IMG/VR virus record: IMGVR_UViG_3300028920_002946
Location: 62,001-126,000 of that record
Source: a virus
Length of the DNA stretch: 64,000 nucleotides
Strand: one strand, 5' to 3'
A program made the position numbers and the translations under genes. The notes beneath the pieces were generated by a model, which ran no database searches, was not told the origin of the DNA, and saw nothing but the letters and a program-made list of their open reading frames with translations. This document shows positions 801 through 62,658 of this stretch, piece after piece. Within the stretch, counting starts at the first letter, position 1, and each line of letters starts with the position of its first letter.

Positions 801-820
801 CTGCATGAATAGAAAATTAA
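801..820 (-). promoter_or_regulatory. Candidate late promoter motif, site 1
   Basis: The minus strand reads TAATTTTCTATTCAT here, matching TAATnnTCTnnTnAT. It lies about 48 bases upstream of the zinc-ribbon gene starting at 753, in the gap after the gene ending at 827. Confidence 0.6.
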
Positions 821-5828: not shown

Positions 5829-5847
5829 GTCTATTAAGAGAGAATTA
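5829..5847 (-). promoter_or_regulatory. Candidate late promoter motif, site 2
   Basis: The minus strand reads TAATTCTCTCTTAAT, a full match to TAATnnTCTnnTnAT, 39 bases upstream of the gene starting at 5790 and just past the end of the endonuclease-methyltransferase gene. Confidence 0.6.
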
Positions 5848-5859
5848 TGGCATCCCCGG

Positions 5860-8115
5860 TTACTTCCGCCAAACGTAGAGGGGTTCCCCCTCCTTCTGCC
5901 TGCTGCGGGTGTTCCAATACCGGGTGGGCAGCCCCTCGAGGCGCGTGCGCGGAAGGGCGCAATGCAAATTGCGCGGGAGATTGAGGACCAGGTAGCCGCC
6001 CGGCTCCAAAGCCGATTCGGCATACTGGAAAATCAGCCCCATAAGATCCCTCCACTCCCCGCGGCCCATTTTCCTGCCGTACACCTCCAAATCGATGTAC
6101 GGGGGCGAGGTAAACACAAGATGGCACCTTTCGGGGGCGCCCTCCAATGAGAACCCGCCGTGAACGAGGTCGCACCGGGCCGCGGACACGAAATCCCTCA
6201 TGGCGCACAAACCCTTGTGGGTCTTGCCCCAAGGCTCGAACCCCACGTAGGACCTCCCGCTGGAAACGGCCCCCAGCATCCGGCCGCCCCATCCCGCGCA
6301 CGGGTCAACGACAACGCCCCCAGGGGGGCTGTAGCGCTCGACGACAGCCTTGGCCACCACGCTCGGAAACGCGGTGACGCCCCCGCTGTACTGTATCAAC
6401 GCGTTCCGGACGAATTTGGGAAGTATGCTTTTCTTGGACTTCAGGCAATACTGCAGGGTCGAATGAAGCGTGGAGTGCCCGGAGAAGGTGTCAGCCGGCG
6501 AAACCCCGCGATATGTGGCCTCGCTCATATGGGGCATGTAGTGCTTGAACAACTCATCACCCACGTTTGCATACCTCAAGACCGTATCGGACTTCCACAG
6601 GTATCTGCTCTGAAACGACTCTATCAACTTCCAGGATCGGCGAAGATACTCGTCCCCGTACCGGGGAGCCGGGAACCCCTTGGAATGATAGTAGGCAACC
6701 GCGTCGTGCAGCACCTCCGGATTCAAGTCAACCACGTACTTGTTTACAAAAGACAAATCCAGGTCGGTGTTGACGGCGGGCTTGAACAACTCCGGAAAAT
6801 AGGTTTCCCAATAGGAGCCCAAATAACCCTCATCGGACGACTTGTACCAAAAGCCGGGCAGTATATACTCACCGGGCACAGGCTCGATGCGCAACGTCCT
6901 TCTGGCGGCGTTCTTGAAGAAGAATCGATTCTCCAACGACCCTATAATGGACTTCCCGGCAGTGACTATGTCCCCTTGTGAACCGTCATCCATGAAATAG
7001 CACGCCCGGCCGAGGTCATTCAATTCGGCGGCGATCATCTCGAAATTCCTGGACCCATCCGGGTTCAGATACCTGCAGTATTCATCGAACCCCGGGCACG
7101 AGAGGCCTATCTGCTCCTCGGACACTATCACACAGTCCTCATAGGCCTGGCCCTTCCTCGGCACCGTAACCACATTGGACAGATGATCCCGCAGTATCTG
7201 CGCCTTCACGTAGAGGTAGCTCAGCTGCGCCAAGGAATGGTTGACCACAAAGCGGCCGTTGAAGTCCAAATGGCCGTCGCCCATCAGCCATCCAAGCAGC
7301 ATCTGATGCACATCCTCGTCGCGGGGGGGCGTCTCCATCGGGGGGCGCCCCACGAGAAGATCCCGTATGGCCTCCAAGTCGCCGCTCCAGGCGACCCTTC
7401 TTTCAGGCAGCGCTATGCCCGCCTGCGCGATCCTGCGATGAAGGACGGTTTCCGAAACCCCCCTCTCCCGGCTGAGGGCCGCAACGCTGCCGGCCTTTTT
7501 CAAGGACTCCTCAAACTCCTCGTCGCTTCCGGAGTTGGCGATGCCCCTGGCCCTGTGTATCCGGTGCCACCTCGGGCCATCGAGGCCGATGCTCTTGATG
7601 TGGATCAAGAGGTCATCATCGTTTACACGGACGCCGTGGATGCGCTCTATCTCACCCGCCATGTCGACAACGCGCATGTCGCGGGACAGCATATCCTCCA
7701 CATCGCTCTTCTTGACATGCCCCCTGAGCCATGTCCGGTTATCCAATGACTTGATGCCGAACCTCCGGAGCCACCACCCAGCCGTATGTCTCGTAAGGGC
7801 CAGCCCGAATTCCTCATTCAAGGCCAAGGCGACCTGTTCGTAGCCGAACTTCTTGGTCTCGCACAGATACCGGGCCCGGTCTTTCATCGCCGCCGTCCAC
7901 GACGACTCCCCGAGAACCTGGGAAGCGGCGGCGCGCTTGGGCTGGATAAGGCCCTTTTTCTTGAGGAGGGAGATCTGCCTCTTGACCCAACGAGGCGTCT
8001 GACCGAGACGCTCAGCCATCTCGGCATTCTTCATCGATGAGTAGTTTTCGACGATAAACTTGAGGTTCTCGGGGGTCTTGCGGTCGGCGGTGACGCCCCT
8101 CTTTGGCGTGCTCAT
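5860..8115 (-). CDS. HTH array - LAGLIDADG homing endonuclease - DNA methyltransferase fusion
   Basis: The 751-residue protein joins three functions. Residues 1-250 look like several winged or helix-turn-helix segments (for example MAERLGQTPRWVKRQISLL, 33-51). Residues 272-440 form a LAGLIDADG-type endonuclease with motifs LLGWLMGDG (273-281) and ACYFMDDGS (371-379). Residues 465-751 are a complete amino-methyltransferase with SAM motif VVDPCAGWGGR (602-612) and catalytic TSPPY (669-673). The ATG at 8115 was chosen because a host-type promoter ends six bases upstream; there is no Shine-Dalgarno. Distinct neighbouring operons suggest a mobile insertion. It shares architecture with the gene at 28352-30946. 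N4-cytosine or N6-adenine specificity cannot be told from the sequence. Confidence 0.85.
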   Translation of the reverse strand: MSTPKRGVTADRKTPENLKFIVENYSSMKNAEMAERLGQTPRWVKRQISLLKKKGLIQPKRAAASQVLGESSWTAAMKDRARYLCETKKFGYEQVALALNEEFGLALTRHTAGWWLRRFGIKSLDNRTWLRGHVKKSDVEDMLSRDMRVVDMAGEIERIHGVRVNDDDLLIHIKSIGLDGPRWHRIHRARGIANSGSDEEFEESLKKAGSVAALSRERGVSETVLHRRIAQAGIALPERRVAWSGDLEAIRDLLVGRPPMETPPRDEDVHQMLLGWLMGDGHLDFNGRFVVNHSLAQLSYLYVKAQILRDHLSNVVTVPRKGQAYEDCVIVSEEQIGLSCPGFDEYCRYLNPDGSRNFEMIAAELNDLGRACYFMDDGSQGDIVTAGKSIIGSLENRFFFKNAARRTLRIEPVPGEYILPGFWYKSSDEGYLGSYWETYFPELFKPAVNTDLDLSFVNKYVVDLNPEVLHDAVAYYHSKGFPAPRYGDEYLRRSWKLIESFQSRYLWKSDTVLRYANVGDELFKHYMPHMSEATYRGVSPADTFSGHSTLHSTLQYCLKSKKSILPKFVRNALIQYSGGVTAFPSVVAKAVVERYSPPGGVVVDPCAGWGGRMLGAVSSGRSYVGFEPWGKTHKGLCAMRDFVSAARCDLVHGGFSLEGAPERCHLVFTSPPYIDLEVYGRKMGRGEWRDLMGLIFQYAESALEPGGYLVLNLPRNLHCALPRTRLEGLPTRYWNTRSRQKEGEPLYVWRK

Positions 8116-9093: not shown

Positions 9094-9112
9094 TGGTATC
9101 AAAAGGGTATTA
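9094..9112 (-). promoter_or_regulatory. Candidate late promoter motif, site 3
   Basis: The minus strand reads TAATACCCTTTTGAT, matching TAATnnTCTnnTnAT except at position 7, 41 bases upstream of the gene starting at 9053. It overlaps the last codon and stop of the preceding gene. Confidence 0.5.
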
Positions 9113-11856: not shown

Positions 11857-11875
11857 CCCTATTACTAGATAATTA
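11857..11875 (-). promoter_or_regulatory. Candidate late promoter motif, site 4
   Basis: The minus strand reads TAATTATCTAGTAAT, a full match to TAATnnTCTnnTnAT, 72 bases upstream of the ATG at 11785. Confidence 0.6.
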
Positions 11876-14400: not shown

Positions 14401-14419
14401 CCGGATGAAAAGATTATTC
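14401..14419 (-). promoter_or_regulatory. Candidate late promoter motif, site 5
   Basis: The minus strand reads GAATAATCTTTTCAT, matching the consensus except the first base, 56 bases upstream of the ATG at 14345, just after the exonuclease gene stop. Confidence 0.6.
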
Positions 14420-16133: not shown

Positions 16134-19100
16134 CCCTTGAACTTCTCGATCCACCCGTCCGCGATCTTCTCCCACGAGTACTCCTTCATCTTCGCCTGCG
16201 CCTTGTCAGCCCACTCTCTTCGATAGTTGGCATCCGTGAGTAGCTTGATCGACTCCTCCACAAATCTATCCGTGTACTCCTTCGGATAGTCGGCGTCCAT
16301 GGGCAGGCCGTCGCCCGGAATGAGTATCCCGGACGGCCCAACGGTCGTCTTGAGGCCCGCGCGGTCGGTGGAGAGTATCGCATTGTGGGACAGGCCGTTC
16401 TCGACGGCGCCTATGCAAAATGTCTCGTCAAACCAACAGGGATAAAGCCAGACGTTGGCCCTCTTCTGATGCTCCGCCAATGTGGCCTTGTCGATGCGAT
16501 CAAGATACTCGACGCCCGGCTGCTCCATCGCCGCCTTGATCTTCTGGATGAAAGCCATGCCCCTCTGGTCGTTCCTGCGCTTCACGGCCGACTCCCAGTT
16601 GTAGAAGCCGTAGGCCACCTTCAGCTTGAAGTCCGGGACGGCCTTCCGTATCTCCGGCATCATCTGCAGCAGCTGATACAGGCCCCTGTCCGGACTCGAC
16701 GAATACACGGAGCAGTTCTCCTTCGCGGAGTCGTCGACGTCATTGTACAGATCCTGCACGACGCCGTTGGCGGTGAGGAACATCTTCTCGGGCGGCAGCT
16801 GCTTGTGGTGGCCGCAGAGGAACTCCTTGTGCCAATCGGAGAGGTAGGCGTACCCCTGCACCTTCCACGCCATCACATCGTAGTTGGGGTCGGGGTTCAG
16901 CCATATGTCGTGCACCATGACGTAGTTGCGCCCGCTGTGCAAACTCTGCCTCATGGGCTCGCAGCTACGGGACGATATGAAGTAGTCGATGTAAAGGTAC
17001 TGTATGTCCTCCATCATCTTCGTGTGATCCACGTACCGCACGGCGCCGTAATCGACGCCCCCCTCGACGACCGGGTCGAGGGCCACATCGTCCTTCGAGT
17101 CGGCGAGGAGGTCGTTGTAGACGGTGGCCTCGTAGCCCTTCCTCACGAACGCGCGCGCGAGGTACGCGGCCCACGTCTCCGACCCCGCCATCCCCTCGTC
17201 CACCCTCCGGCGGTTCCACGGCTCCCACGCGGGTCCCGTCCAGATGGCGATGCGCTTCCTCTCCCACTTCCGCTTGAGCATGACATGGTTCTCGCGGTCC
17301 TCGGCGTCGTAGCTCTCGCGGTCCTCGTCCTGGTAGGCGCCGCGGCTCACGCCCCCGAAGTGGAACACGAAGGAGCCGATCGACTGCCCGCACGCGAACC
17401 CGGCCTTCCCAAGCCGCATGCACAGGTCGAGATCCTCGCAGCCGTTCTTGAACCGGGTGTCGAACAGCCCAACCTCGTTGATGGCGCTGCGCGCGAATAT
17501 GGTGGCGTAGGCCGCGACCCACTCCTGCGGCTGGAAGATGTCCCTGTGCCTCCTGTTGGAGGCCTCCATGAACTCGTACAGCTCGTCGATGTGCGGGGTG
17601 ATCTCCTCCAGCTTCATGCCGGGGTGCAGCTCGACCCCCGCCCTCTCCAGGCGCATCGGGTAGGTCGGCTTCCCCGGGGCGCCGTGAAGCCATGACCTGT
17701 CGCAGTTCGACAGGACGCCGCAGGACGCCAGCCGGTGCACGGTTTCCATGTGCCTGACCATGTTGCCGAGCCAGCCCTTGGACACGACGACGTCGGAGTT
17801 CATGATGACGAAGAACTTGCTGCGCGAACTGCGTACCCCCGCGTTGCAGGCCTCCGAGAAGGTCTTTCGGGCCCCCTCCTCGCCGAGGACCGTTATCCCC
17901 TTCAGCGTCCTCAGATACTCCCACACCTCCGGCCCGCTCCCCGCGTCGCTGACGACGATGTGGAACGGGTGCACCGTGTTGAGGCGTATGGAACTGAGGC
18001 ACAGCTTGAGGTACTCGAGGTTGTTGTAGTTCGGGATCACGAGGTCGACGACATCCCGCGCCTTCTCCACGCTCGCGGGTGCCTCCGCGTGCTCCAGCCT
18101 GATGGTGCCATTCACGAGGCTGTCGAAGAGGTTGATGTAGTTCTGGACGTTGTTCTCGAGCCTGTAGGGGGCGACCGACCTCTTCGCGGCCTTGCCCACC
18201 CGGCGTCGCTCGCCCACGTCCCCCAGCTTGCGGAGGGCCTCGCCCCACTCCTCCTTCGTCTCGGCGATGAAGCCGTTCTCGCCGTGGGCGATGATCTCCT
18301 TGTAGGCCTGCAGCGGGCTCGCGATGACGGGCATCCCGAAGGCCATGGCGGTCGTCGCCTTCACGCTGCTCTTGCCGGGCTGCACGTCGACCCTCTGCGG
18401 GCAGAGGGCCACGTCGCAGGCGGCGAGGTCGTCCGGCCACGTGTCCGGGTCCCACTTGATGTCGGCGTTGTCCCACTCGGAGATCACCACCAGGTCGTAT
18501 CCGGCCGACTCGATGGTGTCCCGGAGGTGGTCGGTGACGAGGAAGGAGTTGCCGCCCATCCCCATGAACACGGCCTTCGGCCTCTCCCCCTTGATCTCCT
18601 TGTATTGGTGGGGCTTCCGCGGTTCGCGCTCCTCGACGCTGTCCTTGAGCACGACCGTGTGCAGGAACCCCCGCTCCCGCGTCATCTCCGCCAGCTTCGT
18701 CGAGCAGCAGAGGATGGCGTCGGCCTCGTGCATGCACTCGTCCTCGAGGGGGAACCCGAAGATGCCCTCGCAGTGGTCGAAGCATATCCTGCGGTTCTTG
18801 GCCTTCATGGCCCGCATCAAGTCCAGTTCGGCGGGGCCAAAGCTCGTGAACACGACGACGTTCGCCGTGCCGACGGCCTCCTCGACATCCTCCGCCGACA
18901 TGTTCTGGTACCCCACCACCCTGCGGCTCTCCACCCTCTTGCCCCGAAGCTTCTCGTCGATGATGAGTCGACGCAGTCTCGTGGAGGGGTTGGTGGCGTC
19001 GTCGTTGGGCAGCAGCCACACGACGGACGTCTTGCGGTGCTTGCGCAGTCGAAGGTCGGCGTGCAGTCCGTTGTTGGCGAGCACCTCCACCATGAGATCG

Positions 19101-21099: not shown

Positions 21100-21118
21100 C
21101 CCGATTAGGAGAATATCA
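21100..21118 (-). promoter_or_regulatory. Candidate late promoter motif, site 7
   Basis: The minus strand reads TGATATTCTCCTAAT, matching the consensus except at position 2, 39 bases upstream of the ATG at 21061. A weaker look-alike with CATCTAGTAAAT lies at 21135-21155. Confidence 0.55.
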
Positions 21119-27980: not shown

Positions 27981-28048
27981 ATGTGCTATGGACGGAACAT
28001 TAACAGAGTATTGGATTTAGGGCAGTAGGCGGCACCCCGCCGGCGCGG

Positions 28049-28311: not shown

Positions 28312-28330
28312 CGGCATGAGAAGAATATTA
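28312..28330 (-). promoter_or_regulatory. Candidate late promoter motif, site 8
   Basis: The minus strand reads TAATATTCTTCTCAT, a full consensus match, 36 bases upstream of the ATG at 28276 and just after the second fusion gene. Confidence 0.6.
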
Positions 28331-28351: not shown

Positions 28352-30946
28352 CTACCGGAACATACCCAGGAACGAGTCCCTCAAGCCCTTGTCCCGGGCG
28401 GCCGCGAAGAGACTCGCCTTGAGGTGCGCGTACGGTTTGCCCGCGTTGAAGAGGCGCTTCATCCTCGATGCAGGATTGCCTGTCGCACTTTCATAGGCGC
28501 CGAACCCCAACGCATCGCCCGCCAAATCGCAAGCATCAAAATACTCCCGTATCCTGTCGACGGGCTTCTTCACGACCCGCCCCGGCTTAAACCCGCACGA
28601 TTCAACGAACTTGTTCCATGAGCCGAATCTGCGCTCCAACACGTGTGCGGGCACGCCGTTGATGCCGTGCCCCTCATAATTGCCCCGTGCAAGCCCGATG
28701 GACGGCGCATTTTCCTTGAACCAACAAACCGCGCCGTCCAAGTCATACCTTTCACGGAAGACACGACGTCCCCTTCTTCTCCTCACCCCTCGAGGCGGGC
28801 GCTGTGTGTGCCTGTCAGGGGGCTCCCAAGTGATAGGGGGGGCCTCGTCAACCGAACAGAAGGACAGAATATCCTCATGGGCCCCGCCATTGAAGTTTCT
28901 GACAGGAACGGCAAACTTCTCAAACAGATGAAACCCCACAGACTTGCAGAGTCGTATGGTGTCCTCTATCAAAGGCGCGCAGGAGCGCTCCGAAAGACAC
29001 ACGGAGAACACCCCGCCGGGCGCAAGCGACCCTATGCAGTTGCGGACGGTGGGATCCCAATAACCCTCTATCCACCGCCGATAGTCGGGGAACTTCGCCA
29101 CACTCTGGGTGCTCTCGTCGCTGTACCTTTCGTAATCGAAGTACGGGGGGCTCGAGAAGGCGACGCTAAAGGCCCCGGGTTTGGGGCCGAAACCCTCCGA
29201 TCCGGATTTGACCACATCAAACCTCCCCCCGACCACGGGACGAAGAAACGACCCGAAGCGCTCCAAGTTGGAGGCCGTCTCCGAACAGGGTTCGACGCAC
29301 ACATAGTCCATGCCCAGAGACATGGCCCCGAGCATGCGGGACCCGTACCCGCCGCTGTAGTCCAGCACCCGCCCGTTGGCGCCATACCTGTAGAACACAA
29401 ACCTCGCCACGGAGGGCTTGAAATTGCTCACGCATAGCCGCATGGCCTTGAATCCCCTGCGCATCGAAGCCTCGCCCACGCGGTCCGCATGCTCAAGGCG
29501 GTTTCTGACATAGCCCCGCATGAAGGACTCGTCCCGCCACAAATCAACAGGCGAGGCGTGGCCCTTGCGGCTCGCGGAGTACATGTTCGGAAAAAAGCCC
29601 TCGCACAGTATCATGCCCGCCGAACTATGAGCCAAAACGCCCCCCTCGTCCCTGATAATCGATGAACGCTTGAAAGACGAAGCCAGATACTCGGCCCTCT
29701 TCGCGCTGAGGGACATATAGGGAAACGGTTTGCCCCAATATCTTCTGAACAGGGTGTCCTCCATCGCCGACTTCACGGGATCCGGGGACAGCCGATAGAA
29801 TTTCGGGCGCGGGTCGCCGACGAGCGCGGACACCCGGGCGACCTCCTCCGCGGACAGGAAATCCTCGGGTATCTTGTAGTACATGTCGGGGGTGGCGACC
29901 CCAAGCACGATGCGGAAAAAATCGCGGTAGTGGCTTTTCGACACTGTCACGTTATGGCCCGAAAGGGAAAACCCCCATCCGTATCTGTCCTCCAACCAAC
30001 CGACGAAGCGCTCAATCTGCGAGCGGTCGCCGCAGAAGTTGGCTATGGACATCTGCCTCCTCTCGTCGTCGTAACTGCCGTCGTCCAGGAACCAATAGCC
30101 CAAAATGCGGTCATCCCAATTCTCCTCGATGAACTTAAGAGGGACTGCCTTGCCCGGCACACCATCGGTGTAGAAGGCTTCTCGAAACTCCGCGAAAGCG
30201 GGATGCGTGACCGTATTAATTCTGAACTCATTTCTATCGTGATCCTTCATAATTCTATTTGAGTAGGGCTCAAGGGCAACCATCTTGCTTCTTAAGTAGT
30301 CTTTTTGTTTTGCCGAGTGAGTTTCATAATATCTCGGTGACCTGTCGATGCCGCCGTCGCCGAGGAGGCCCCCTATGATGAGGAAACGCTGCTCTTTGGT
30401 AAGAGCGGGATATTGACCCTGTCGCCAATCCTCCTTTGGCCCTATGCCCCTCTGACGTAGAACAGGAAGCCAAACGGTCTTCGACAACCCCACCTTCTCC
30501 GAAAAAGCGTCGTTCGTCATGGAGTGGTACATGGATCGCAATTCATCGGTCGACATGGAAACCAGACGTTCGGACGCGTTCCGCGTCTTTGAAAATTTGT
30601 CCGTAGCGAGCAGACCTATCCTTTTTCGTCGGTATGCCACACCCGGGCCTGTCAAGCCGAAACGACGCCCAATTTCCTCGTCGGAAAGTCCCTGCTCGCA
30701 AAATCCCTTGAGGACATCATCCGTCAATAGCTTTCTCAGCCCCTTTTTCTTGCCCGTGTACGCAACACGGACATCAGAGCGACCAACGCTCTTGGGGTTT
30801 GTGGGAATGCCGTATTTCCTCAAGAGCTTAAAAACGGCGTCCTCAGTCACTCCGACCAACGAACCTATCTCCCGGCACCGAAGACCGTGTGTGGAGTACA
30901 GCTGCCTAAGACTCTCTTCATCGAGTTTGTCAAACGAATAGTTCAT
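28352..30946 (-). CDS. HTH - LAGLIDADG homing endonuclease - DNA methyltransferase fusion (second copy)
   Basis: The 864-residue protein has the same order of parts as the gene at 5860-8115. Residues 1-170 hold HTH-like segments (REIGSLVGVTEDAVFKLLRK, 25-44). Residues 185-345 are the LAGLIDADG endonuclease (IIGGLLGDGGID 190-201; ILGYWFLDDGSYDD 281-294). Residues 395-700 are the methyltransferase, with SAM motif VLDYSGGYGSRMLG (527-540) and SSPPY (598-602). A C-terminal extension (about 735-790) ends FGSWNKFVESCGF, like homing-endonuclease-associated repeats. The ATG at 30946 lies seven bases past a TATATT box. The proteins are diverged, so this is not a recent duplication. Confidence 0.85.
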   Translation of the reverse strand: MNYSFDKLDEESLRQLYSTHGLRCREIGSLVGVTEDAVFKLLRKYGIPTNPKSVGRSDVRVAYTGKKKGLRKLLTDDVLKGFCEQGLSDEEIGRRFGLTGPGVAYRRKRIGLLATDKFSKTRNASERLVSMSTDELRSMYHSMTNDAFSEKVGLSKTVWLPVLRQRGIGPKEDWRQGQYPALTKEQRFLIIGGLLGDGGIDRSPRYYETHSAKQKDYLRSKMVALEPYSNRIMKDHDRNEFRINTVTHPAFAEFREAFYTDGVPGKAVPLKFIEENWDDRILGYWFLDDGSYDDERRQMSIANFCGDRSQIERFVGWLEDRYGWGFSLSGHNVTVSKSHYRDFFRIVLGVATPDMYYKIPEDFLSAEEVARVSALVGDPRPKFYRLSPDPVKSAMEDTLFRRYWGKPFPYMSLSAKRAEYLASSFKRSSIIRDEGGVLAHSSAGMILCEGFFPNMYSASRKGHASPVDLWRDESFMRGYVRNRLEHADRVGEASMRRGFKAMRLCVSNFKPSVARFVFYRYGANGRVLDYSGGYGSRMLGAMSLGMDYVCVEPCSETASNLERFGSFLRPVVGGRFDVVKSGSEGFGPKPGAFSVAFSSPPYFDYERYSDESTQSVAKFPDYRRWIEGYWDPTVRNCIGSLAPGGVFSVCLSERSCAPLIEDTIRLCKSVGFHLFEKFAVPVRNFNGGAHEDILSFCSVDEAPPITWEPPDRHTQRPPRGVRRRRGRRVFRERYDLDGAVCWFKENAPSIGLARGNYEGHGINGVPAHVLERRFGSWNKFVESCGFKPGRVVKKPVDRIREYFDACDLAGDALGFGAYESATGNPASRMKRLFNAGKPYAHLKASLFAAARDKGLRDSFLGMFR

Positions 30947-33953: not shown

Positions 33954-33972
33954 CTACATGAATAGATTATTA
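33954..33972 (-). promoter_or_regulatory. Candidate late promoter motif, site 9
   Basis: The minus strand reads TAATAATCTATTCAT, a full consensus match, 75 bases upstream of the scaffold-like gene start. This site could drive scaffold, decoration and capsid expression independently of the protease. Confidence 0.65.
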
Positions 33973-38898: not shown

Positions 38899-38917
38899 CC
38901 GTATTAACAGAAAATTA
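38899..38917 (-). promoter_or_regulatory. Candidate late promoter motif, site 10
   Basis: The minus strand reads TAATTTTCTGTTAAT, a full consensus match, 52 bases upstream of the gene starting at 38847, in the gap after the stop at 38930. Confidence 0.65.
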
Positions 38918-42082: not shown

Positions 42083-42101
42083 GCTAATAGTAGTTTATTA
42101 G
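42083..42101 (-). promoter_or_regulatory. Candidate late promoter motif, site 11
   Basis: The minus strand reads TAATAAACTACTATT, matching the consensus except for an A at position 7 and T at position 14. It is 37 bases upstream of the portal-operon first gene and overlaps the 3' end of the regulator gene. Confidence 0.55.
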
Positions 42102-55061: not shown

Positions 55062-55080
55062 GTGTAATACTAGATCATTA
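55062..55080 (-). promoter_or_regulatory. Candidate late promoter motif, site 13
   Basis: The minus strand reads TAATGATCTAGTATT, matching the consensus except position 14, 53 bases upstream of the ATG at 55009. Confidence 0.6.
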
Positions 55081-55128: not shown

Positions 55129-56037
55129 TTAAGCGCCGCGGAGCCAGCGGTCGAAGCGGAGGAGGATGCGCCTCAGATCCTTGGTGAGCATCCCGTAGGC
55201 CGTGTGGGCGATGTGAAGCGGCACGTAGTCGTAGTACGCCTGCGCTATGGCCCCGGCGAGGCACCCGAGGCTGTCGGCGTCGCCGCCGAGCGACACCGCC
55301 CGGCGCACGCAGTCCTCGTACGACGTGGAGCAGAGGAAGCATATGACGGCGTGGGGGACGGTGACCTGGCACGAGACGTCGAAACCGTTGGCGGGCCTTA
55401 TGTCGTCGTCGGTCTTGGACAGATCGTAGCCGTAGGACAGCTCCATGTAGCTTTTCAGGATGTCCTTGCTCGCCCCCATGCGGGCGAGGCTCACGGCCTG
55501 CACCGCCGCGTCGGCCCCCTTAAGGCCCTCGTCGTGGTTGTGGGTGACCTCCGCGGAAAGCCGGGACTGCCTGTGGAGCGAGTCGTGGTCCTTGTAGATC
55601 CAGCCAAGGGCGATGGCCCTGACCGCGCTCCCGTTGCCCCAGCTTTTGTACGGGCCGGCGACGCTCGACCCCACCCAGGACGAAAAGAGCCTCCCGTACC
55701 CCGCCCCCGGGTGGCGCTTGCAGACTTTCCTCAGATGCGAGGCGTAGTCCCCGTTCGACATGGCGGCCTCGGCGACCGCGAGGAGCATCACGGTGTCATC
55801 CGTGAACCGCGAGCCCTCCTTGAACAGGTCGAGTCCGTAATCCTTCTCCGGATGCCTCTCGCGCGTGGATCCTATGATATCCCCGGCGATGGCCCCTATG
55901 AGAGGGGTTTTGGACAGATCGACGCGCGTTTTGGGGGCGCGCCTATTCCCTGTATCTGCGGTAGATGATCGAGAGGACGCCGGTCGGGTTCCAATGCTGG
56001 CTTCCAGTATGCTTGCCGAGTTTGAGTTTTTGCGCAA
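55129..56037 (-). CDS. ADP-ribosylglycohydrolase (ARH/DraG-like)
   Basis: The protein has the family's conserved motifs: LIGAIAGDIIGS (about 46-57), RFTDDTVM (TDDT, 79-82), HNHDEGLKGADA, and the closing GGDADSLG. These place two metals for hydrolysis of ADP-ribose from proteins or nucleic acids. The only standard start in frame is a TTG at 56037, and the first 37 residues overlap the 65-residue gene in another frame, so the real N-terminus is uncertain. Entry by +1 frameshifting or a rare start is possible. It could reverse host ADP-ribosylation defences. Confidence 0.8.
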   Translation of the reverse strand: MRKNSNSASILEASIGTRPASSRSSTADTGNRRAPKTRVDLSKTPLIGAIAGDIIGSTRERHPEKDYGLDLFKEGSRFTDDTVMLLAVAEAAMSNGDYASHLRKVCKRHPGAGYGRLFSSWVGSSVAGPYKSWGNGSAVRAIALGWIYKDHDSLHRQSRLSAEVTHNHDEGLKGADAAVQAVSLARMGASKDILKSYMELSYGYDLSKTDDDIRPANGFDVSCQVTVPHAVICFLCSTSYEDCVRRAVSLGGDADSLGCLAGAIAQAYYDYVPLHIAHTAYGMLTKDLRRILLRFDRWLRGA

Positions 56038-56278: not shown

Positions 56279-56307
56279 AATATACTATCTAGCGCCCATT
56301 TTGTTGA
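56279..56307 (-). promoter_or_regulatory. Possible weak sigma70-like promoter
   Basis: The minus strand has TCAACA (56307-56302, 4 of 6 matches to TTGACA), 17 bases, TATATT (56284-56279), about 139 bases upstream of the 65-residue gene. The 186-base gap otherwise holds only a short TTCGCC/GGCGAA hairpin at 56184-56198. Confidence 0.4.
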
Positions 56308-56325: not shown

Positions 56326-56952
56326 TCATGAAACCTCGTCGTATTTCACCCGCTTGCCGCGGTTGAAGTGCGGGAGGATGACCTCGTGCATCATGTAGAG
56401 GTTCCCCTTGACGTAGACGGCGAGGTCGTGGACGGTCGCAAGCTCCTTGTGGTCCTCCTTGAGGGAGGCCAGCTTGCCGATGGCCCGCTCGAAGCGGTGG
56501 CGGACCTTCACCTGCGTCATCCGCTTGTCGCCGCGGAGCCTGTGCCTCTTGTTGAGTATCGCGGCGGTGCGCGACTGGCACGTGGTCTCTATCATCGTCT
56601 GGATGACGTCTATGTCGAAGGGGTCGAAATGGCCGGCGAGGAGTTCGCCGAGGTCGCCCTCGACCTTGGGCATGTCCCTGAGGAACTCCAGCCTCCGGAT
56701 GGCCCTGCAGAGCCTGTGGCTGACGGCCCCCTGGGTGACGCCGAAGAACGCGGCGATCTCCTTCTGCTTCTTCCTGGCGCGGCAGTACATCTCGATGAGG
56801 TCCTGCTCGCGCTGCGGCAGCCGGCTGATGAACTCCTGGTAGTCCTCCAGCCTGAACTGGCTGCTCTGCAGCTTGTAGAAGGAGTACTTCTCGGAGGAGA
56901 AGCGGTTCTGTATCTCGAGCGGGTCCATGCTGCGATAGCGCCTTGATGACAT
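56326..56952 (-). CDS. Sigma-region-4-like HTH protein
   Basis: The 208-residue protein has a sigma-70 region-4-like segment (about 43-95): FISRLPQREQDLIEMYC, then the HTH KEIAAFFGVTQGAVSHRL, then RAIRRLEFL. The flanking regions are not typical sigma region 2, so it may be a divergent sigma factor or a promoter-binding co-factor. It is the last gene of the replication cluster. It is the best candidate in the window to recognise the TAATnnTCTnnTnAT motif. Confidence 0.75.
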   Translation of the reverse strand: MSSRRYRSMDPLEIQNRFSSEKYSFYKLQSSQFRLEDYQEFISRLPQREQDLIEMYCRARKKQKEIAAFFGVTQGAVSHRLCRAIRRLEFLRDMPKVEGDLGELLAGHFDPFDIDVIQTMIETTCQSRTAAILNKRHRLRGDKRMTQVKVRHRFERAIGKLASLKEDHKELATVHDLAVYVKGNLYMMHEVILPHFNRGKRVKYDEVS

Positions 56953-56965
56953 CAACCACCACCTT

Positions 56966-57892
56966 TCAGAACAGCGAGTACGTCTCCACCTTCTCGGCCG
57001 TGACGGATTCCCCGTATCTCACATTGAGGGACGAGGCGAACAGATCCCCCACGGCATCCGGATCCACTGACTTGACGCTGTAGGATTTCAGCACCTCGGC
57101 CATAACCCCCTTGTCCACGGACCCCGGCGTCTCGACGATGCCGCCGACGTCCTCCCTCAGCTTCATAAGCGCCATATTTCGGTAGGCCGCGTCCCTGAAT
57201 CCCTTGAAAGCCGCCCTCTCCCTCTCGGTAAGCGACGCAGCCCCCAACGCGGAGTAGAGCGCGTCAATCCCCTTGTGTTCGGAGATGAGCGACGCCACGA
57301 CCTTGCGCCTCACGCGGGGTATCCCGCCGAGGCCGTCGCTCTGGTCGCCGTCGAAGCTCCTGAACTGCGCCAGGAGAGCCGGCGGGACGCCGAACCGTTC
57401 GACCACGGCCGACTCGTCGTAGAACCTTTCGGGCTTCTGGCCGCTTTTGGGCCTGAACACGATTATCTTGCCGTCCTCGACCAACTGAAGGAAGTCTTTG
57501 TCGTTTGAATATACCACTATATGGCCGTCCTGGCAACGCCAACGCGAAACCAAGGTCGCGACGACATCGTCGGCCTCCTCGTCCGGGCATCTGTATTGGT
57601 CGACGCCGCAAGCGGTTAGGAACCTTTCCAGATCCCTGACCTCGTCCATCACAGGGTTCGGGAGGCGGGTGCGGTCGGCCTTGTAGTCAGGCTTGATCTC
57701 CAGCTTCCGCCTCGAGCGGCTGTCCCACACGACGGCAAACTTGTAGCCCCGGTATCGTTTCTTCAAAGAAACGATGGTGCGCACGAAGCCGAAGAACATG
57801 CCGGACGGCCTGCCATCCGCCGTCTTCAGTTCGAAGTTGGCGTTGTGCGACCTGTGGGCCAGGTTCATGCCGTCTATGACGAATCTGTTCAT
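56966..57892 (-). CDS. FEN-type 5'-3' exonuclease
   Basis: The 308-residue protein is a FEN/PolI-type 5' nuclease. Visible metal-site motifs include IDGMNLAHR near 6-14, IKPDYKADR near 73-81, PDEEADDVVATL near 108-119, YSNDKDFLQLV near 134-144, and FDGDQSDGLGGIP near 190-202 (helix-hairpin-helix region). It removes RNA primers or flap DNA at replication forks. The start at 57892 is supported by AGGGGCGGT. It sits in the replication cluster next to the NusG-like gene. Confidence 0.9.
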   Translation of the reverse strand: MNRFVIDGMNLAHRSHNANFELKTADGRPSGMFFGFVRTIVSLKKRYRGYKFAVVWDSRSRRKLEIKPDYKADRTRLPNPVMDEVRDLERFLTACGVDQYRCPDEEADDVVATLVSRWRCQDGHIVVYSNDKDFLQLVEDGKIIVFRPKSGQKPERFYDESAVVERFGVPPALLAQFRSFDGDQSDGLGGIPRVRRKVVASLISEHKGIDALYSALGAASLTERERAAFKGFRDAAYRNMALMKLREDVGGIVETPGSVDKGVMAEVLKSYSVKSVDPDAVGDLFASSLNVRYGESVTAEKVETYSLF

Positions 57893-57900
57893 ACCGCCCC

Positions 57901-58605
57901 TCACTGTTGCTGTATCTCCATGTTGAGGACGCTGATCGGGGCCTGCACGGTGCGCGAGGACCGCTTGAACACCACGCTCGCCGTTCTCCTGTCCCGCGCG
58001 ACCGACTTGACCTTCCCCTCGAGATTCTTGAACGTGCCGACCTTCGGGACGATGATATCGCCCCTCTTCGGGGCGAGATCCTTGATGGAGGAGACGATTT
58101 GCCTCTTGAACTTGTTGATCTCCCCGCCGGTGACGGTGTCCGGGCGGTTGCCCCGTATCTCGCCCCTCAGGTACGGGCTCTGCATCTTGGCGAGCATCGA
58201 CTCGGATTCCTCCGTCTTCTCGATGAAGACGTACCCCGCTATGAGGTCTATCCCGACGCACTTGTCCTTGACCCTCTCCACGTAGGCCGGTATGAAAAAG
58301 CCGGTGCGATCGCCGAATATGCGGACGATCTCGCACTCCAGGAGGTCGTACATCGTGTGCGTGTCGGACTCCTGATCGTGCAACTCGACGATCATCCACA
58401 CACCGTCGCGCCTGTGCTTGGAGGACAGGTCGCGCGAGGCCGCCACATTCGCCGGCACCGCCTTCGGCCTCGTCCTCGAGCCCTTCGGCCTGCCCCTCCT
58501 TCTCTTGGGGGGGCCCGCCCCGATCGCCCTGCGCCCCCTTTTTCTCGCCACCTTCTTGGCCGGCCTGCGGCCCCGCGCCGGAGCGCGGTCAGATTTTCTC
58601 CCCAT
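57901..58605 (-). CDS. NusG-like transcription elongation factor
   Basis: The 234-residue protein has a basic, disordered N-terminal 65 residues. An NGN-like domain follows (about 68-145: WMIVELHDQES, FFIPAYVERVKDK, LIAGYVFIEKTEE), then a KOW-like domain (about 180-232: PKRGDIIVPKVGTFKNLEGK ending AMPI-like ISVLNMEI). NusG binds RNA polymerase and affects pausing and termination. A phage-encoded paralogue would be suited to antitermination across long operons. Its start overlaps the clamp-loader stop. Confidence 0.75.
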   Translation of the reverse strand: MGRKSDRAPARGRRPAKKVARKRGRRAIGAGPPKRRRGRPKGSRTRPKAVPANVAASRDLSSKHRRDGVWMIVELHDQESDTHTMYDLLECEIVRIFGDRTGFFIPAYVERVKDKCVGIDLIAGYVFIEKTEESESMLAKMQSPYLRGEIRGNRPDTVTGGEINKFKRQIVSSIKDLAPKRGDIIVPKVGTFKNLEGKVKSVARDRRTASVVFKRSSRTVQAPISVLNMEIQQQ

Positions 58606-59950
58606 CTGTGCTTCCCTTGAGAACGCGTTCCACGTCATCCCTCGAAACCGGCCGCCTGTGCGGCAGCTCCTCGATTTTCTCTTTTTGCTCGGGTCCCCAA
58701 ATCTTGGACACCCTCTCCGGGACGCGTTCATCGACCCTCTGCCTTCTCCTGCCCTCCTTGTACCCTCTGACGACATCCTCCCTCTTGCCGCTCGGCAACT
58801 GCGCCAGTTCGCTTATGGACGGCGCGCGCGACACGCCAGCCTCCGGCCCCTCCTCCCGCCGGCCCTTGGCCTGCGGCCGCTCCTGCCGCGCCGGGACCTC
58901 CTGAGGCACGAACGAACCCCTTCTGAACCTGTAATGTATGATCAATAGGTCGCTCTGGAACATGGGGAGGTCGTTCAGCCTGTTCCTCGAAACTATGTAG
59001 TCCAGTACCTCGAACGCCATGGCCCCGTACTTGCGGTTCACGGCCTCGACGAGATCGCGGTACCGCCCGGGGGCGAAGGGGAGCCCGTTCGCCAGCTTCA
59101 CGGCGTCGATCAGTATCCTCACGGCGAGAGCGTATATGCGGTGCACCGACATCTTGGACACGAGATAGTTGGCAAAGGTGAGCGCCTTCGCGAGATCGTC
59201 CGGGATGGTCATCAGCATACCCGCCGTCTCGTCCGTGTACATCGCCACGGCCTTCTTGACGTTGTCGCGGGTGATGTCGCCGAGCATCGACACCTGCCGC
59301 AGCCTGTTCTCGGCGTCGCGGTAGTGCCTCCCGACTGCCCTGACGATCTCGTCGAGCGCGCCGTCCTCGTGCTCCAGGCCCTTCGCCACGCATATCATCT
59401 CCAGCTTCGACCGGATGTTCCCGTCGCTCGGCTCCTGGATGGAGAACTCCATGCACCTCGACCGCAGGGTCTGGTGCATCTTCTCCGGGGCCGTGGTGCA
59501 GAATATGATGATGACATTGGGGTCGCGTTTCTCCAAATGCGTCAGGAGCGCGTCCTTGCCCGCGTCCGATATGTCGTGCGCCTCGTCGAAGAGGATTATC
59601 TTGCGGCTGGACAGGGTTTCGTAGCGGAGGCTGTCCTTGATGTCCTGGATCCTCTCCTTGGTGCCCTGGTTGGCGGCGTCTATCTCGAGGTAGGCCGAGT
59701 TCCTGTCCTCCAAGAACTCCCGGCAGGATCGGCACTCGTTGCAGGGGGACATGTCCCCGCGCCGGTTCTCGCACAGCACGGCCCGCGCGAATATCCTCCC
59801 GAGCGTGGTCTTCCCCGTGGCGTGCGACCCGCCGAAGATGTAGCCCTGGTCGTAGTCCTGCCTGCGCAGGATGTTGCGCAGTATCTCCTTGACGTCCTCC
59901 AACCCGAGGACCTCGTCGAACACCAGCGGTCTGAACTCTACACCGAACAA
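58589..59950 (-). CDS. Clamp-loader subunit (DnaX-like AAA+)
   Basis: The 453-residue protein is a DNA polymerase III gamma/tau-type ATPase. It has Walker A GGSHATGKTT (40-49), a four-Cys zinc site (C60, C70, C73, C76), Walker B LFDEAHD (120-126) and the arginine-finger segment LRSRCMEF. Regions after 330 are basic and Pro-rich, perhaps a tau-like polymerase-binding tail. It loads the sliding clamp at phage forks. It overlaps the 194-residue gene by 13 bases. Confidence 0.9.
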   Translation of the reverse strand: MFGVEFRPLVFDEVLGLEDVKEILRNILRRQDYDQGYIFGGSHATGKTTLGRIFARAVLCENRRGDMSPCNECRSCREFLEDRNSAYLEIDAANQGTKERIQDIKDSLRYETLSSRKIILFDEAHDISDAGKDALLTHLEKRDPNVIIIFCTTAPEKMHQTLRSRCMEFSIQEPSDGNIRSKLEMICVAKGLEHEDGALDEIVRAVGRHYRDAENRLRQVSMLGDITRDNVKKAVAMYTDETAGMLMTIPDDLAKALTFANYLVSKMSVHRIYALAVRILIDAVKLANGLPFAPGRYRDLVEAVNRKYGAMAFEVLDYIVSRNRLNDLPMFQSDLLIIHYRFRRGSFVPQEVPARQERPQAKGRREEGPEAGVSRAPSISELAQLPSGKREDVVRGYKEGRRRQRVDERVPERVSKIWGPEQKEKIEELPHRRPVSRDDVERVLKGSTDGEKI

Positions 59951-60522
59951 GTGTCACCCCGTTTCTTCTTTTTTCGCACCATCTCGCATCGGCCCGTGCC
60001 CTCCCCGGGCAGCGAGCCGACCCCAACATACCCGCCCACGGTCTCCGAAGCCGGCCTGCTGAGCATCACGACCTTGTACTCCCGAAGCCGGTTGGACTTT
60101 ATCACGTCGGAGATGGAGGCTGCGAAATCCTTCGGCTTGACGTACATGTCGACAAGCACGGGCCTCAAGGTTTTCCATTCGCCGCCTTTGAAACTGATGG
60201 AGGGCTTCTTGACGCTTTCGCCCACGGTGTACGTTCTCCTGAACCACCTCGTGTAGAGGGGGATCTCCGCCCACCCGACGCGCTGCAGGTCAATCTTGCC
60301 CCGATCCACCCCGAACCCCGACACATAGTCGGCAATGGACTCGGCGTCCCAGCCGAACTTTGACACATAGTGGCCATAACTCGACCTATCGAGGGCTTTG
60401 AGCGCCGTCCGAAGGAGGCTCCTGCCGGGCCGAAAGGCGAAATCAATGCTCCATTCGCCCGACTTCGTGCACCTCAAGCCGGTGGATTCCATGATTTTGA
60501 CCACCTCGGACTGTGACTTCAT
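59938..60522 (-). CDS. 194-residue replication-cluster protein, unknown
   Basis: The product has alpha/beta character (VVMLSRPASETVGGYVGVG near 151-169) with a short basic C-terminus (RKKKKRG). It is translationally overlapped by both neighbours. No family was recognised; a DNA-replication accessory role is inferred from the operon. Confidence 0.6.
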   Translation of the reverse strand: MKSQSEVVKIMESTGLRCTKSGEWSIDFAFRPGRSLLRTALKALDRSSYGHYVSKFGWDAESIADYVSGFGVDRGKIDLQRVGWAEIPLYTRWFRRTYTVGESVKKPSISFKGGEWKTLRPVLVDMYVKPKDFAASISDVIKSNRLREYKVVMLSRPASETVGGYVGVGSLPGEGTGRCEMVRKKKKRGDTCSV

Positions 60523-61220
60523 GCGGCGTCCTCCTGCAGCACGCGGGGGACGCGCGACTTGACATGCCTCACGAACCTGTCCGGCCCCATCACCTTGAGA
60601 AGGTCGTTGGCGTCCGAGTCCCCCATGCTCACGAACTCCAGCCTCGACGTCCCGTACTCCTGGGCCAGCTTGTACCGCCCTATGTCTCCGGCCTTGTCCT
60701 GGTCGAACACGACGATGACGAGGTCCACCAGGAACGTGAGCAGTTCGTACTGGGCCTTCCCGAGGAAGGATGTCAGGCAGGCGACGGAGTTGGGGAACGC
60801 CTTGGAGAAGGCCATGCAGTTGAACGCGCCCTCGTGCACGAACACCCTCCTCGTCCTGCGGATTTCCGGCAGCGCCTCGCGCAGCCCGAAGAAGGCGCCG
60901 ATGGCCTTCGCCTCGGACAGCAGGAACTGCACGTACCTCTTCTCCGACAGCGCGCGCGTCTGCAGCCCGTTCACGTTGCCGAGGATGTTGCGCAGCGGGA
61001 TGAGGATGCGGTTCTCGAGCCCCTTGAACCCGTAGCTGGCCTCCTTGAGGTCCTCGTAGTCGGGCGACTTCGACTTGGGGGGCCGCGCCACACGGGTGTA
61101 CCCGATGCCCCACTTGGACATGTCCCCCGTGGAGAAGCCGCGCGACGCCATGTAGCGCACCGCCTCCTCGTGCTCCAGGGCGGACCGGGAGGCCCTATCG
61201 ACCAGACCGTCGAGATACAC
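60519..61220 (-). CDS. TOPRIM primase-like protein
   Basis: The 233-residue protein has the DnaG-type core: GLENRILIPLRN near 67-78, then a TOPRIM domain with catalytic E130 (VFVHEGAFN) and DxD (VVFDQDKAG, D173, D175). There is no N-terminal zinc finger, so template recognition may be supplied in trans. It makes RNA primers for lagging-strand synthesis. The GTG start lies four bases after GGGA and overlaps the upstream gene's end. Confidence 0.85.
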   Translation of the reverse strand: MYLDGLVDRASRSALEHEEAVRYMASRGFSTGDMSKWGIGYTRVARPPKSKSPDYEDLKEASYGFKGLENRILIPLRNILGNVNGLQTRALSEKRYVQFLLSEAKAIGAFFGLREALPEIRRTRRVFVHEGAFNCMAFSKAFPNSVACLTSFLGKAQYELLTFLVDLVIVVFDQDKAGDIGRYKLAQEYGTSRLEFVSMGDSDANDLLKVMGPDRFVRHVKSRVPRVLQEDAA

Positions 61221-61694: not shown

Positions 61695-61723
61695 AATATA
61701 ACGGCATGGCAGGCGGAAATTAA
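61695..61723 (-). promoter_or_regulatory. Possible promoter of the replication operon
   Basis: The minus strand has TATATT (61700-61695) 17 bases after TTAATT (61723-61718; 3 of 6 matches to TTGACA). The -10 is five bases before the ATG at 61689. The weak -35 makes this tentative. Confidence 0.4.
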
Positions 61724-62097: not shown

Positions 62098-62658
62098 TCA
62101 GCTGACCACGACCGACAGCGAATTCGCCAACAGGTTGACGCCGAGCGCGTGAAGGTACTCGTCGGAGGAGGATGTCAGCGCCTCCGGCACAACCACCTCG
62201 TAGTCCCTGTTCCTCAGCTCCTCCGCCGTGAAAAGCACGGCCATGTGCGTCTCGAGGCCGACGACGTGCACCCGCTCCGGCCTCGCCTTACCCAACTCCG
62301 AGTCGAGCATCGTCGCGAAGAAGGCGCTCGGCCTGGTGGCGTTCACGATGAGCTTCAAGTGGGGCTTGAACGCCTCCGGTATGTCCACGTCGTGCGACCC
62401 GACGACCGAGTGGCTCCTGCCCCTGCGGTAGAAGGTGTCGCTGGCGTGGTGCACCTCCCGCACCCCGAATATCAACCCCCCGCGCGCCCTCTGCTCGCGC
62501 AGGTAGGACTCCATCCTCACCTTCAGCACGTCCGCCCGGTCCCCGAGGTACATCGAGCCCTTCTTCGAGAACCACGCGTTCTGCAGCCCGCAGGCTATCA
62601 CCGCATCCACGACGACACCGCCCGGACGACCCCCGACCACCATATCCGGATCCGGCAC
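62098..62658 (-). CDS. Isochorismatase-fold protein lacking catalytic residues
   Basis: The 186-residue protein has the fold of nicotinamidase/isochorismatase hydrolases (CGLQNAWF; FGVREVHHASDTFY; RPSAFFATMLDSEL; VHVVGLETHMAVLFTAEEL). The three catalytic residues appear replaced: Asp by G24, Lys by R109 and Cys by A140. It is probably an inactive ligand- or nucleotide-binding relative. The start is uncertain (GTG at 62658 or ATG at 62643), and it overlaps a small gene. Confidence 0.65.
   Translation of the reverse strand: MPDPDMVVGGRPGGVVVDAVIACGLQNAWFSKKGSMYLGDRADVLKVRMESYLREQRARGGLIFGVREVHHASDTFYRRGRSHSVVGSHDVDIPEAFKPHLKLIVNATRPSAFFATMLDSELGKARPERVHVVGLETHMAVLFTAEELRNRDYEVVVPEALTSSSDEYLHALGVNLLANSLSVVVS

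Follow-up and report, generated by a model that had tools for sequence, protein, structure and literature searches.

The window (the whole stretch of 64,000 nucleotides analysed here) carries on its minus strand a cluster of replication genes, and next to the structural genes this cluster ends in a gene for a 208-aa protein with two sigma-region-4-like helix-turn-helix motifs (HTHs), hereafter the tandem R4 protein. A good ribosome-binding site precedes its ATG. That the gene stands at the end of the replication cluster had been claimed in an earlier note on this DNA, and it is indeed the last of a minus-strand cluster that includes clamp loader, primase and 5' nuclease genes. The locus contains the following features:

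56326..56952, minus strand: tandem sigma-region-4-like protein, 208 aa (ATG at 56952, stop codon at 56326-56328)
56665..56853, minus strand: HTH1, canonical sigma region 4, residues 34-96 (Pfam above cut-off; VIA structure matches)
56449..56655, minus strand: HTH2, diverged region-4-like, residues 100-168 (hhalign to HTH1)
56329..56406, minus strand: C-terminal tail, residues 183-208 (low-confidence structure; conserved EV.LP.F)
56966..57892, minus strand: 5'-3' exonuclease/FEN, conserved neighbour (PHROG 107, E 5.8e-20)
57901..58605, minus strand: phage NusG/Spt5-like (NGN-KOW) protein, conserved neighbour (family profile against PDB)
58589..59923, minus strand: clamp loader subunit (PHROG 5846, E 8.5e-46)
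60519..61220, minus strand: DnaG-type primase (PHROG 47, E 2.3e-23)

The order primase, clamp loader, NusG-like and/or 5' nuclease, tandem R4 and structural genes was conserved over 82 loci. Primase was present in 60 of these, the clamp loader in 70, and the NusG-like and/or 5' nuclease genes, which formed one merged cluster, in 79; this merged cluster supplied the immediate upstream gene in 72 of the 82, and structural genes came after the tandem R4 gene in 50-54. The profile of the NusG-like family matched NusG/Spt5 structures in the PDB with E values of 1e-10 to 4e-9, one match being nearly full length, and one phrase search of the literature retrieved nothing on a phage-encoded NusG. The phage also encodes a beta-clamp-like protein, and its large terminase gene lies about 6 kb beyond the tandem R4 gene. 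In addition, genes for an ADP-ribosylglycohydrolase (55129-55788, minus strand; PHROG 6572, E 1.2e-31) and an isochorismatase (62098-62643, minus strand; Pfam, E 1.1e-17) adjoin the replication cluster. Gene calling relied on a simple script rather than a standard gene finder, and the domain scans covered part of the 174 predicted proteins.

The first HTH is a region 4 HTH of the sigma-70 family located in residues 36-88. These residues matched Sigma70_r4_2 (PF08281) with an E value of 8.3e-9 (35.4 bits, cut-off 25.7), residues 42-88 matched Sigma70_r4 (PF04545) with an E value of 3.2e-8 (33.4 bits, cut-off 24.1), and the top PHROG of the protein was PHROG 351, RNA polymerase sigma factor (E 1.1e-9). 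An AlphaFold2 model built from 53 family members had a mean pLDDT of 86, and in a VIA search the predicted fold of residues 34-94 matched many sigma region 4 structures (Z about 7-9, rmsd mostly 1-3 A). When the family profile was compared with solved structures, SigF (E 5e-8) and FliA (E 3e-5) were found. Thus, the resemblance to sigma region 4 claimed in the earlier note, for which it had quoted LPQREQDLIEMYC and KEIAAFFGVTQGAVSHRL (both present in the ORF), is upheld by Pfam, structure and family profile alike, and the structural comparison that the note proposed led to sigma region 4 and to no unrelated HTH family. The top VIA row for HTH1 was UPF0122 (Z 9.4, 65 residues, rmsd 1.1). The fold of HTH1 is similar to that of these YlxM-type proteins, but gene context and domain make-up differ, the neighbours here being phage replication and structural genes.

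Judged from its sequence, the second half of the protein is another region-4-like HTH, which was overlooked previously. The HTH2 profile aligned with the HTH1 profile in hhalign (P 96.9%, E 1.8e-10), and in the relatives G014, G008 and G015 Sigma70_r4_2 matched the second half alone with E values of 3.6e-4 to 7.2e-4, below the cut-off. Across the family HTH2 carries the nearly invariant TTCQS and Q..VRH.F, and in the clade of the window it has a clade-specific insert of about 10 residues. A structure search with HTH2 alone gave generic HTH matches, the best being a small terminase HTH (VIA Z 6.6), and sigma region 4 entries were absent among the matches listed, which implies that HTH2 has diverged. 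The recognition helices of the two HTHs contain invariant residues (R80, Q74, Q147, R151 and H152). No region 2 (PF04542) was recognised in the 208-aa protein or anywhere in the genomes G000, G001 and LR745208, where a diverged one could be missed. Compared with sigma-70 factors (SigF, FliA, ECF), HTH1 is therefore alike in sequence and fold, whereas the protein as a whole lacks region 2 or 3 and has two region-4-like HTHs in tandem.

A scan of IMG/VR, whose records are possibly fragments of genomes, confirmed 128 relatives, the best 80 of which were fetched; they come from phages of up to 619 kb. More than 80 proteins belong to the family, nearly all of them encoded by uncultured large phages. 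Among 50,697 named phage records a clear relative was found in one, the uncultured 485-kb LR745208.1, and relatives were also present on five contigs of binned genomes. The protein of the window has the two HTHs, the TTCQS and VRH.F of HTH2 and the synteny with NusG-like and 5' nuclease genes that mark the family, and it is among the proteins common to all eight relatives compared. The Pfam sigma region 4 match was above the cut-off in 10 of 10 genomes tested, and in 9 of 10 phages the tandem R4 protein was the sole region-4 protein above it; LR745208.1 contains a second such match at 154165-154320 (plus strand) in a 288-aa frame. Our literature search found no paper describing the family.

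The earlier note had linked the protein to a late motif, TAATnnTCT. In the window this motif occurred 9 times against 1.46 expected, a count reached in 0 of 100 shuffles, and it ranked first when upstream regions were searched for gapped words without bias. Genome-wide it extends to the 15-bp sequence TAATnnTCTnnTnAT, so that the late element proved to be real and conserved but longer than claimed. Because the motif is nearly mirror-symmetric, the reversed-pattern control was invalid, and expectations from an order-2 Markov model (10 simulations) were used in its place. The own genome contained 9 exact 15-bp sites against 0.0 expected, and the relatives G002, G005, G001 and G003 contained 25 against 2.2, 8 against 0.6, 7 against 1.6 and 4 against 0.4, respectively. 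All 9 exact sites of the own genome were intergenic, although intergenic DNA makes up 13% of the genome, and a weight matrix (PWM) located 24 intergenic sites, mostly before structural genes. The sites in the window are:

55066..55080, minus strand: late box TAATGATCTAGTATT before the first structural gene after the tandem R4 gene (motif search and PWM)
805..819, minus strand: late box TAATTTTCTATTCAT (motif; conserved before orthologs)
5833..5847, minus strand: late box TAATTCTCTCTTAAT (motif; conserved before orthologs)
11861..11875, minus strand: late box TAATTATCTAGTAAT (motif; conserved before orthologs)
28316..28330, minus strand: late box TAATATTCTTCTCAT (motif; conserved before orthologs)
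33958..33972, minus strand: late box TAATAATCTATTCAT (same gene boxed in G001, G002 and G005)
38903..38917, minus strand: late box TAATTTTCTGTTAAT (same gene boxed in G004 and G007)
9098..9112, minus strand: weaker late box TAATACCCTTTTGAT (PWM)
14405..14419, minus strand: weaker late box GAATAATCTTTTCAT (PWM)
21104..21118, minus strand: weaker late box TGATATTCTCCTAAT (PWM)
27999..28013, minus strand: weaker late box CAATACTCTGTTAAT (PWM)
42086..42100, minus strand: weaker late box TAATAAACTACTATT (PWM)

In relatives with 26-64% protein identity the box precedes orthologous genes. The gene behind the box at 55066..55080 has a boxed ortholog in G001, G002, G003, G005 and G006, and the genes with a conserved box include those at genome positions 94668, 116587, 73342, 67482, 62031, 54480 and 99699. 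The halves of the box, TAAT and TAAT/TCAT, are fixed and lie one helical turn apart, and the box is identical in phages of 62% and of 38-39% G+C. Its distance to the start codon ranged from 15 to about 150 nt; in G002 two conserved start codons lay 15-16 nt from the end of the box, and many box sites of G015 were 25-29 nt from the start codon. Since these distances in G002 and G015 are short, the transcription start is apparently close by, which would place the box near -10. A search for downstream motifs, in which the box was considered as a classical -35 element with a variably spaced -10, did no clearly better than shuffles and a control region; the signals at fixed positions were weak and confined to T25/26, A27 and a purine at 30/31. 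A terminator hairpin before each box was also considered and rejected as not general, a strong hairpin preceding only a few of the sites. Two related long ORFs (5860-8115 and 28352-30160, both on the minus strand) are flanked by late boxes. Their N-termini are HTH-like and repeated, a part of each may be a homing endonuclease, their ends resemble DNA methyltransferases, and they are possibly homing elements.

The early genes on the other strand are preceded by a separate class of elements, TTTAA-N17-TATATT, also with (AG)TATATT, a point in favour of the interpretation in the earlier note. TTTAA-N17-(AG)TATATT was common to G000 (131911-131939 and 142230-142258, both on the plus strand) and G002 (94765), among other positions, and in G002 an early-type element stands upstream of the gene orthologous to the one that opens the replication cluster. 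In the own genome TATATT elements are present in and before this cluster, and two elements were placed in the window:

61695..61723, minus strand: early-type promoter-like element TTAA-N19-TATATT, inside the replication cluster
56279..56286, minus strand: AGTATATT element just after the stop codon of the tandem R4 gene, before the next small gene

The cluster holding the tandem R4 gene contains no late box. As the cluster has the other type of promoter and lacks the late one, production of the tandem R4 protein probably precedes that of the late proteins. The early region also contains 22 clustered tRNA genes (L018, genome 166001-182677), one of them called with the stop-reading anticodon tta. 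An 87-aa coiled-coil protein (genome 149421-149684; L017:3421-3684) scored just below the cut-off for GapR DNA-binding proteins and was found in 3 of 3 distant relatives tested. In G010, a member of a further clade (C), a repeated two-block element aATCGTGnAAA...CCCAATCGCTTnnnnGGTG stands before many genes, often divergent pairs (e.g., 18945-18980, plus strand), and probably represents the early promoters of this phage.

The phage has no detectable RNA polymerase of its own. The beta' subunit (PF04997) was absent from 17 genomes, while 14 of 14 control genomes were positive, and phmmer with T7 RNA polymerase gave no match in the proteomes searched. PF00940 had no match in 18 genomes, nor in the control genomes. 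A T7-like polymerase was considered as the reader of the box, which resembles the T7 promoter (TAATAC...), yet no polymerase match was found. The gp55 family (PHROG 234) had no match in 17 genomes, nor was it among the matches of the 208-aa protein, and phmmer with T4 gp55 found nothing in the proteomes searched. Hence, the designation of the protein as a late sigma factor stood as far as region 4 is concerned but not in the sense of T4 gp55, as neither region 2 nor a gp55-like or RNA polymerase gene was found, although diverged versions of any of these may have escaped the searches.

A link between the protein and the late box is plausible from sequence comparisons. The occurrence of an identical box in phages of 62% and of 38-39% G+C argues for a phage-encoded reader; moreover, there is one candidate factor per phage, and its distribution is shared with that of the box. 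In a second clade (clade B: G015, G014 and probably G013) the box is the 15-bp CGRTAnnnnnYYTAT, in which the form of the right half is kept and the left is changed; there the helix of HTH2 is almost invariant, and that of HTH1 changes from TQGA[VI]SHR to SQPTV[CS]YR. G015 and G014 had a strong clade B box, and 9 of 11 sites in G013 were on one strand; in G012 the box was strand-biased, but the reversed control was equally high. The prediction that similar helices share a box held in part and failed for G010 and G016 of clade C, in which the clade B box was not found despite helices nearly those of clade B.

We consider the tandem R4 protein the best candidate for a switch that turns the host RNA polymerase to a phage-specific late box. 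Produced from the replication gene cluster, it would bind the host polymerase, with one HTH probably occupying the place on the beta flap that region 4 of the host sigma otherwise takes, and would help to steer the enzyme to the late genes marked by TAATnnTCTnnTnAT. Two half-sites one helical turn apart would suit two HTHs on one face of the DNA, and promoters would be opened by region 2 of the host sigma or by a partner that escaped detection. Flap binding, box contact and the late role are what we infer from these data. We give an even chance to the reading that the protein acts on host RNA polymerase as a late-transcription factor of a tandem-region-4 type not characterised so far, while direct contact of the protein with the box is somewhat doubtful. 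A lone region 4 does not normally bind near -10, and a start-proximal box therefore counts against reading by region 4. In the full version, a single protein with two region 4 HTHs but no region 2 would act like a sigma factor, recognise the 15-bp box near the start by its two half-sites and set the choice of late promoters on host polymerase, together with a phage NusG paralog and, with clade-specific boxes, throughout a large clade of uncultured huge phages; this version is put forward as rather unlikely.

Alternatively, though clearly less probable than the main reading, the protein could be a coactivator in the manner of gp33 that clamps the beta flap and touches upstream DNA nonspecifically, the box being read by an undetected region-2-type partner or by host sigma region 2. 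The apparent start-proximal position of the box would fit, as in T4 and phiEco32 the promoters with a single, start-proximal box are recognised by region-2 proteins that have no region 4 (PMC8948821; PMC7892883), and with a phage beta-clamp-like protein present one may speculate that the flexible tail with EV.LP.F binds the clamp. The searches with PF04542, PHROG 234 and phmmer, however, revealed neither a gp55 nor a region-2 gene, the tandem R4 protein is related in structure to sigma region 4 whereas gp33 is not (PMC7892883), and the invariant recognition-helix residues in both HTHs suggest DNA contact. That the protein acts away from the late box as an early-promoter repressor, a sigma-diverting factor or a middle-gene activator appears improbable: an HTH protein at such a position may act on any promoter, and AGTATATT follows directly after the gene, but its affiliation is with sigma region 4 rather than with a repressor family, and its position and the conservation of the late box favour a late role.

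A replication or packaging protein, e.g., a small terminase, whose DNA-binding HTH resembles region 4 is quite improbable. The distance of about 6 kb to the large terminase gene, the VIA match of HTH2 and a weak match to PHROG 2538 (E 0.012) point in this direction; against them stand the SigF and FliA matches of the family profile, the Pfam sigma region 4 in all ten genomes and a model that lacks a long coiled-coil oligomerisation part. We regard it as very improbable that the box is an RNA element, i.e., a 5' UTR processing or translation signal instead of a promoter. It always lies upstream of start codons, with a strong hairpin before few sites, but its halves keep the spacing of one turn at very different G+C contents, the distance to the start codon is variable, and early promoters of ordinary form exist alongside it.

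The T4 late system is similar in the location of the factor gene near replication genes, single-box promoters, the use of host polymerase and a phage clamp; it differs in its gp55, in gp33 not being a true homolog of sigma region 4, and in the sequence of the box. Likewise, phiEco32 gp36 and phage 7-11 gp47 are phage factors that work with host polymerase at late promoters of their own; the single box of the phiEco32 promoters is tAATGTAtA, and gp36 is without region 4, whereas here region 4 occurs twice and region 2 is absent. A "minimal sigma factor" with a single HTH occurs in group 2 jumbo phages (PMC7824862) and, compared by description, shares with the present protein a region-4-type HTH without other sigma parts; its HTH is single, in contrast to the tandem HTHs seen here, and those phages additionally possess sigma factors of other types and an ortholog of gp33.

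A whole family of uncultured phages of up to 619 kb has one candidate factor in common, and in two clades its putative box is defined. To our knowledge, late-gene switching in large phages without their own RNA polymerase is understood for very few models. The late switch could be tested in vitro with few proteins and oligonucleotides. If the proposed reading is true, a factor with two copies of region 4 and no region 2 would be relevant to the question of which parts of sigma promoter choice requires.
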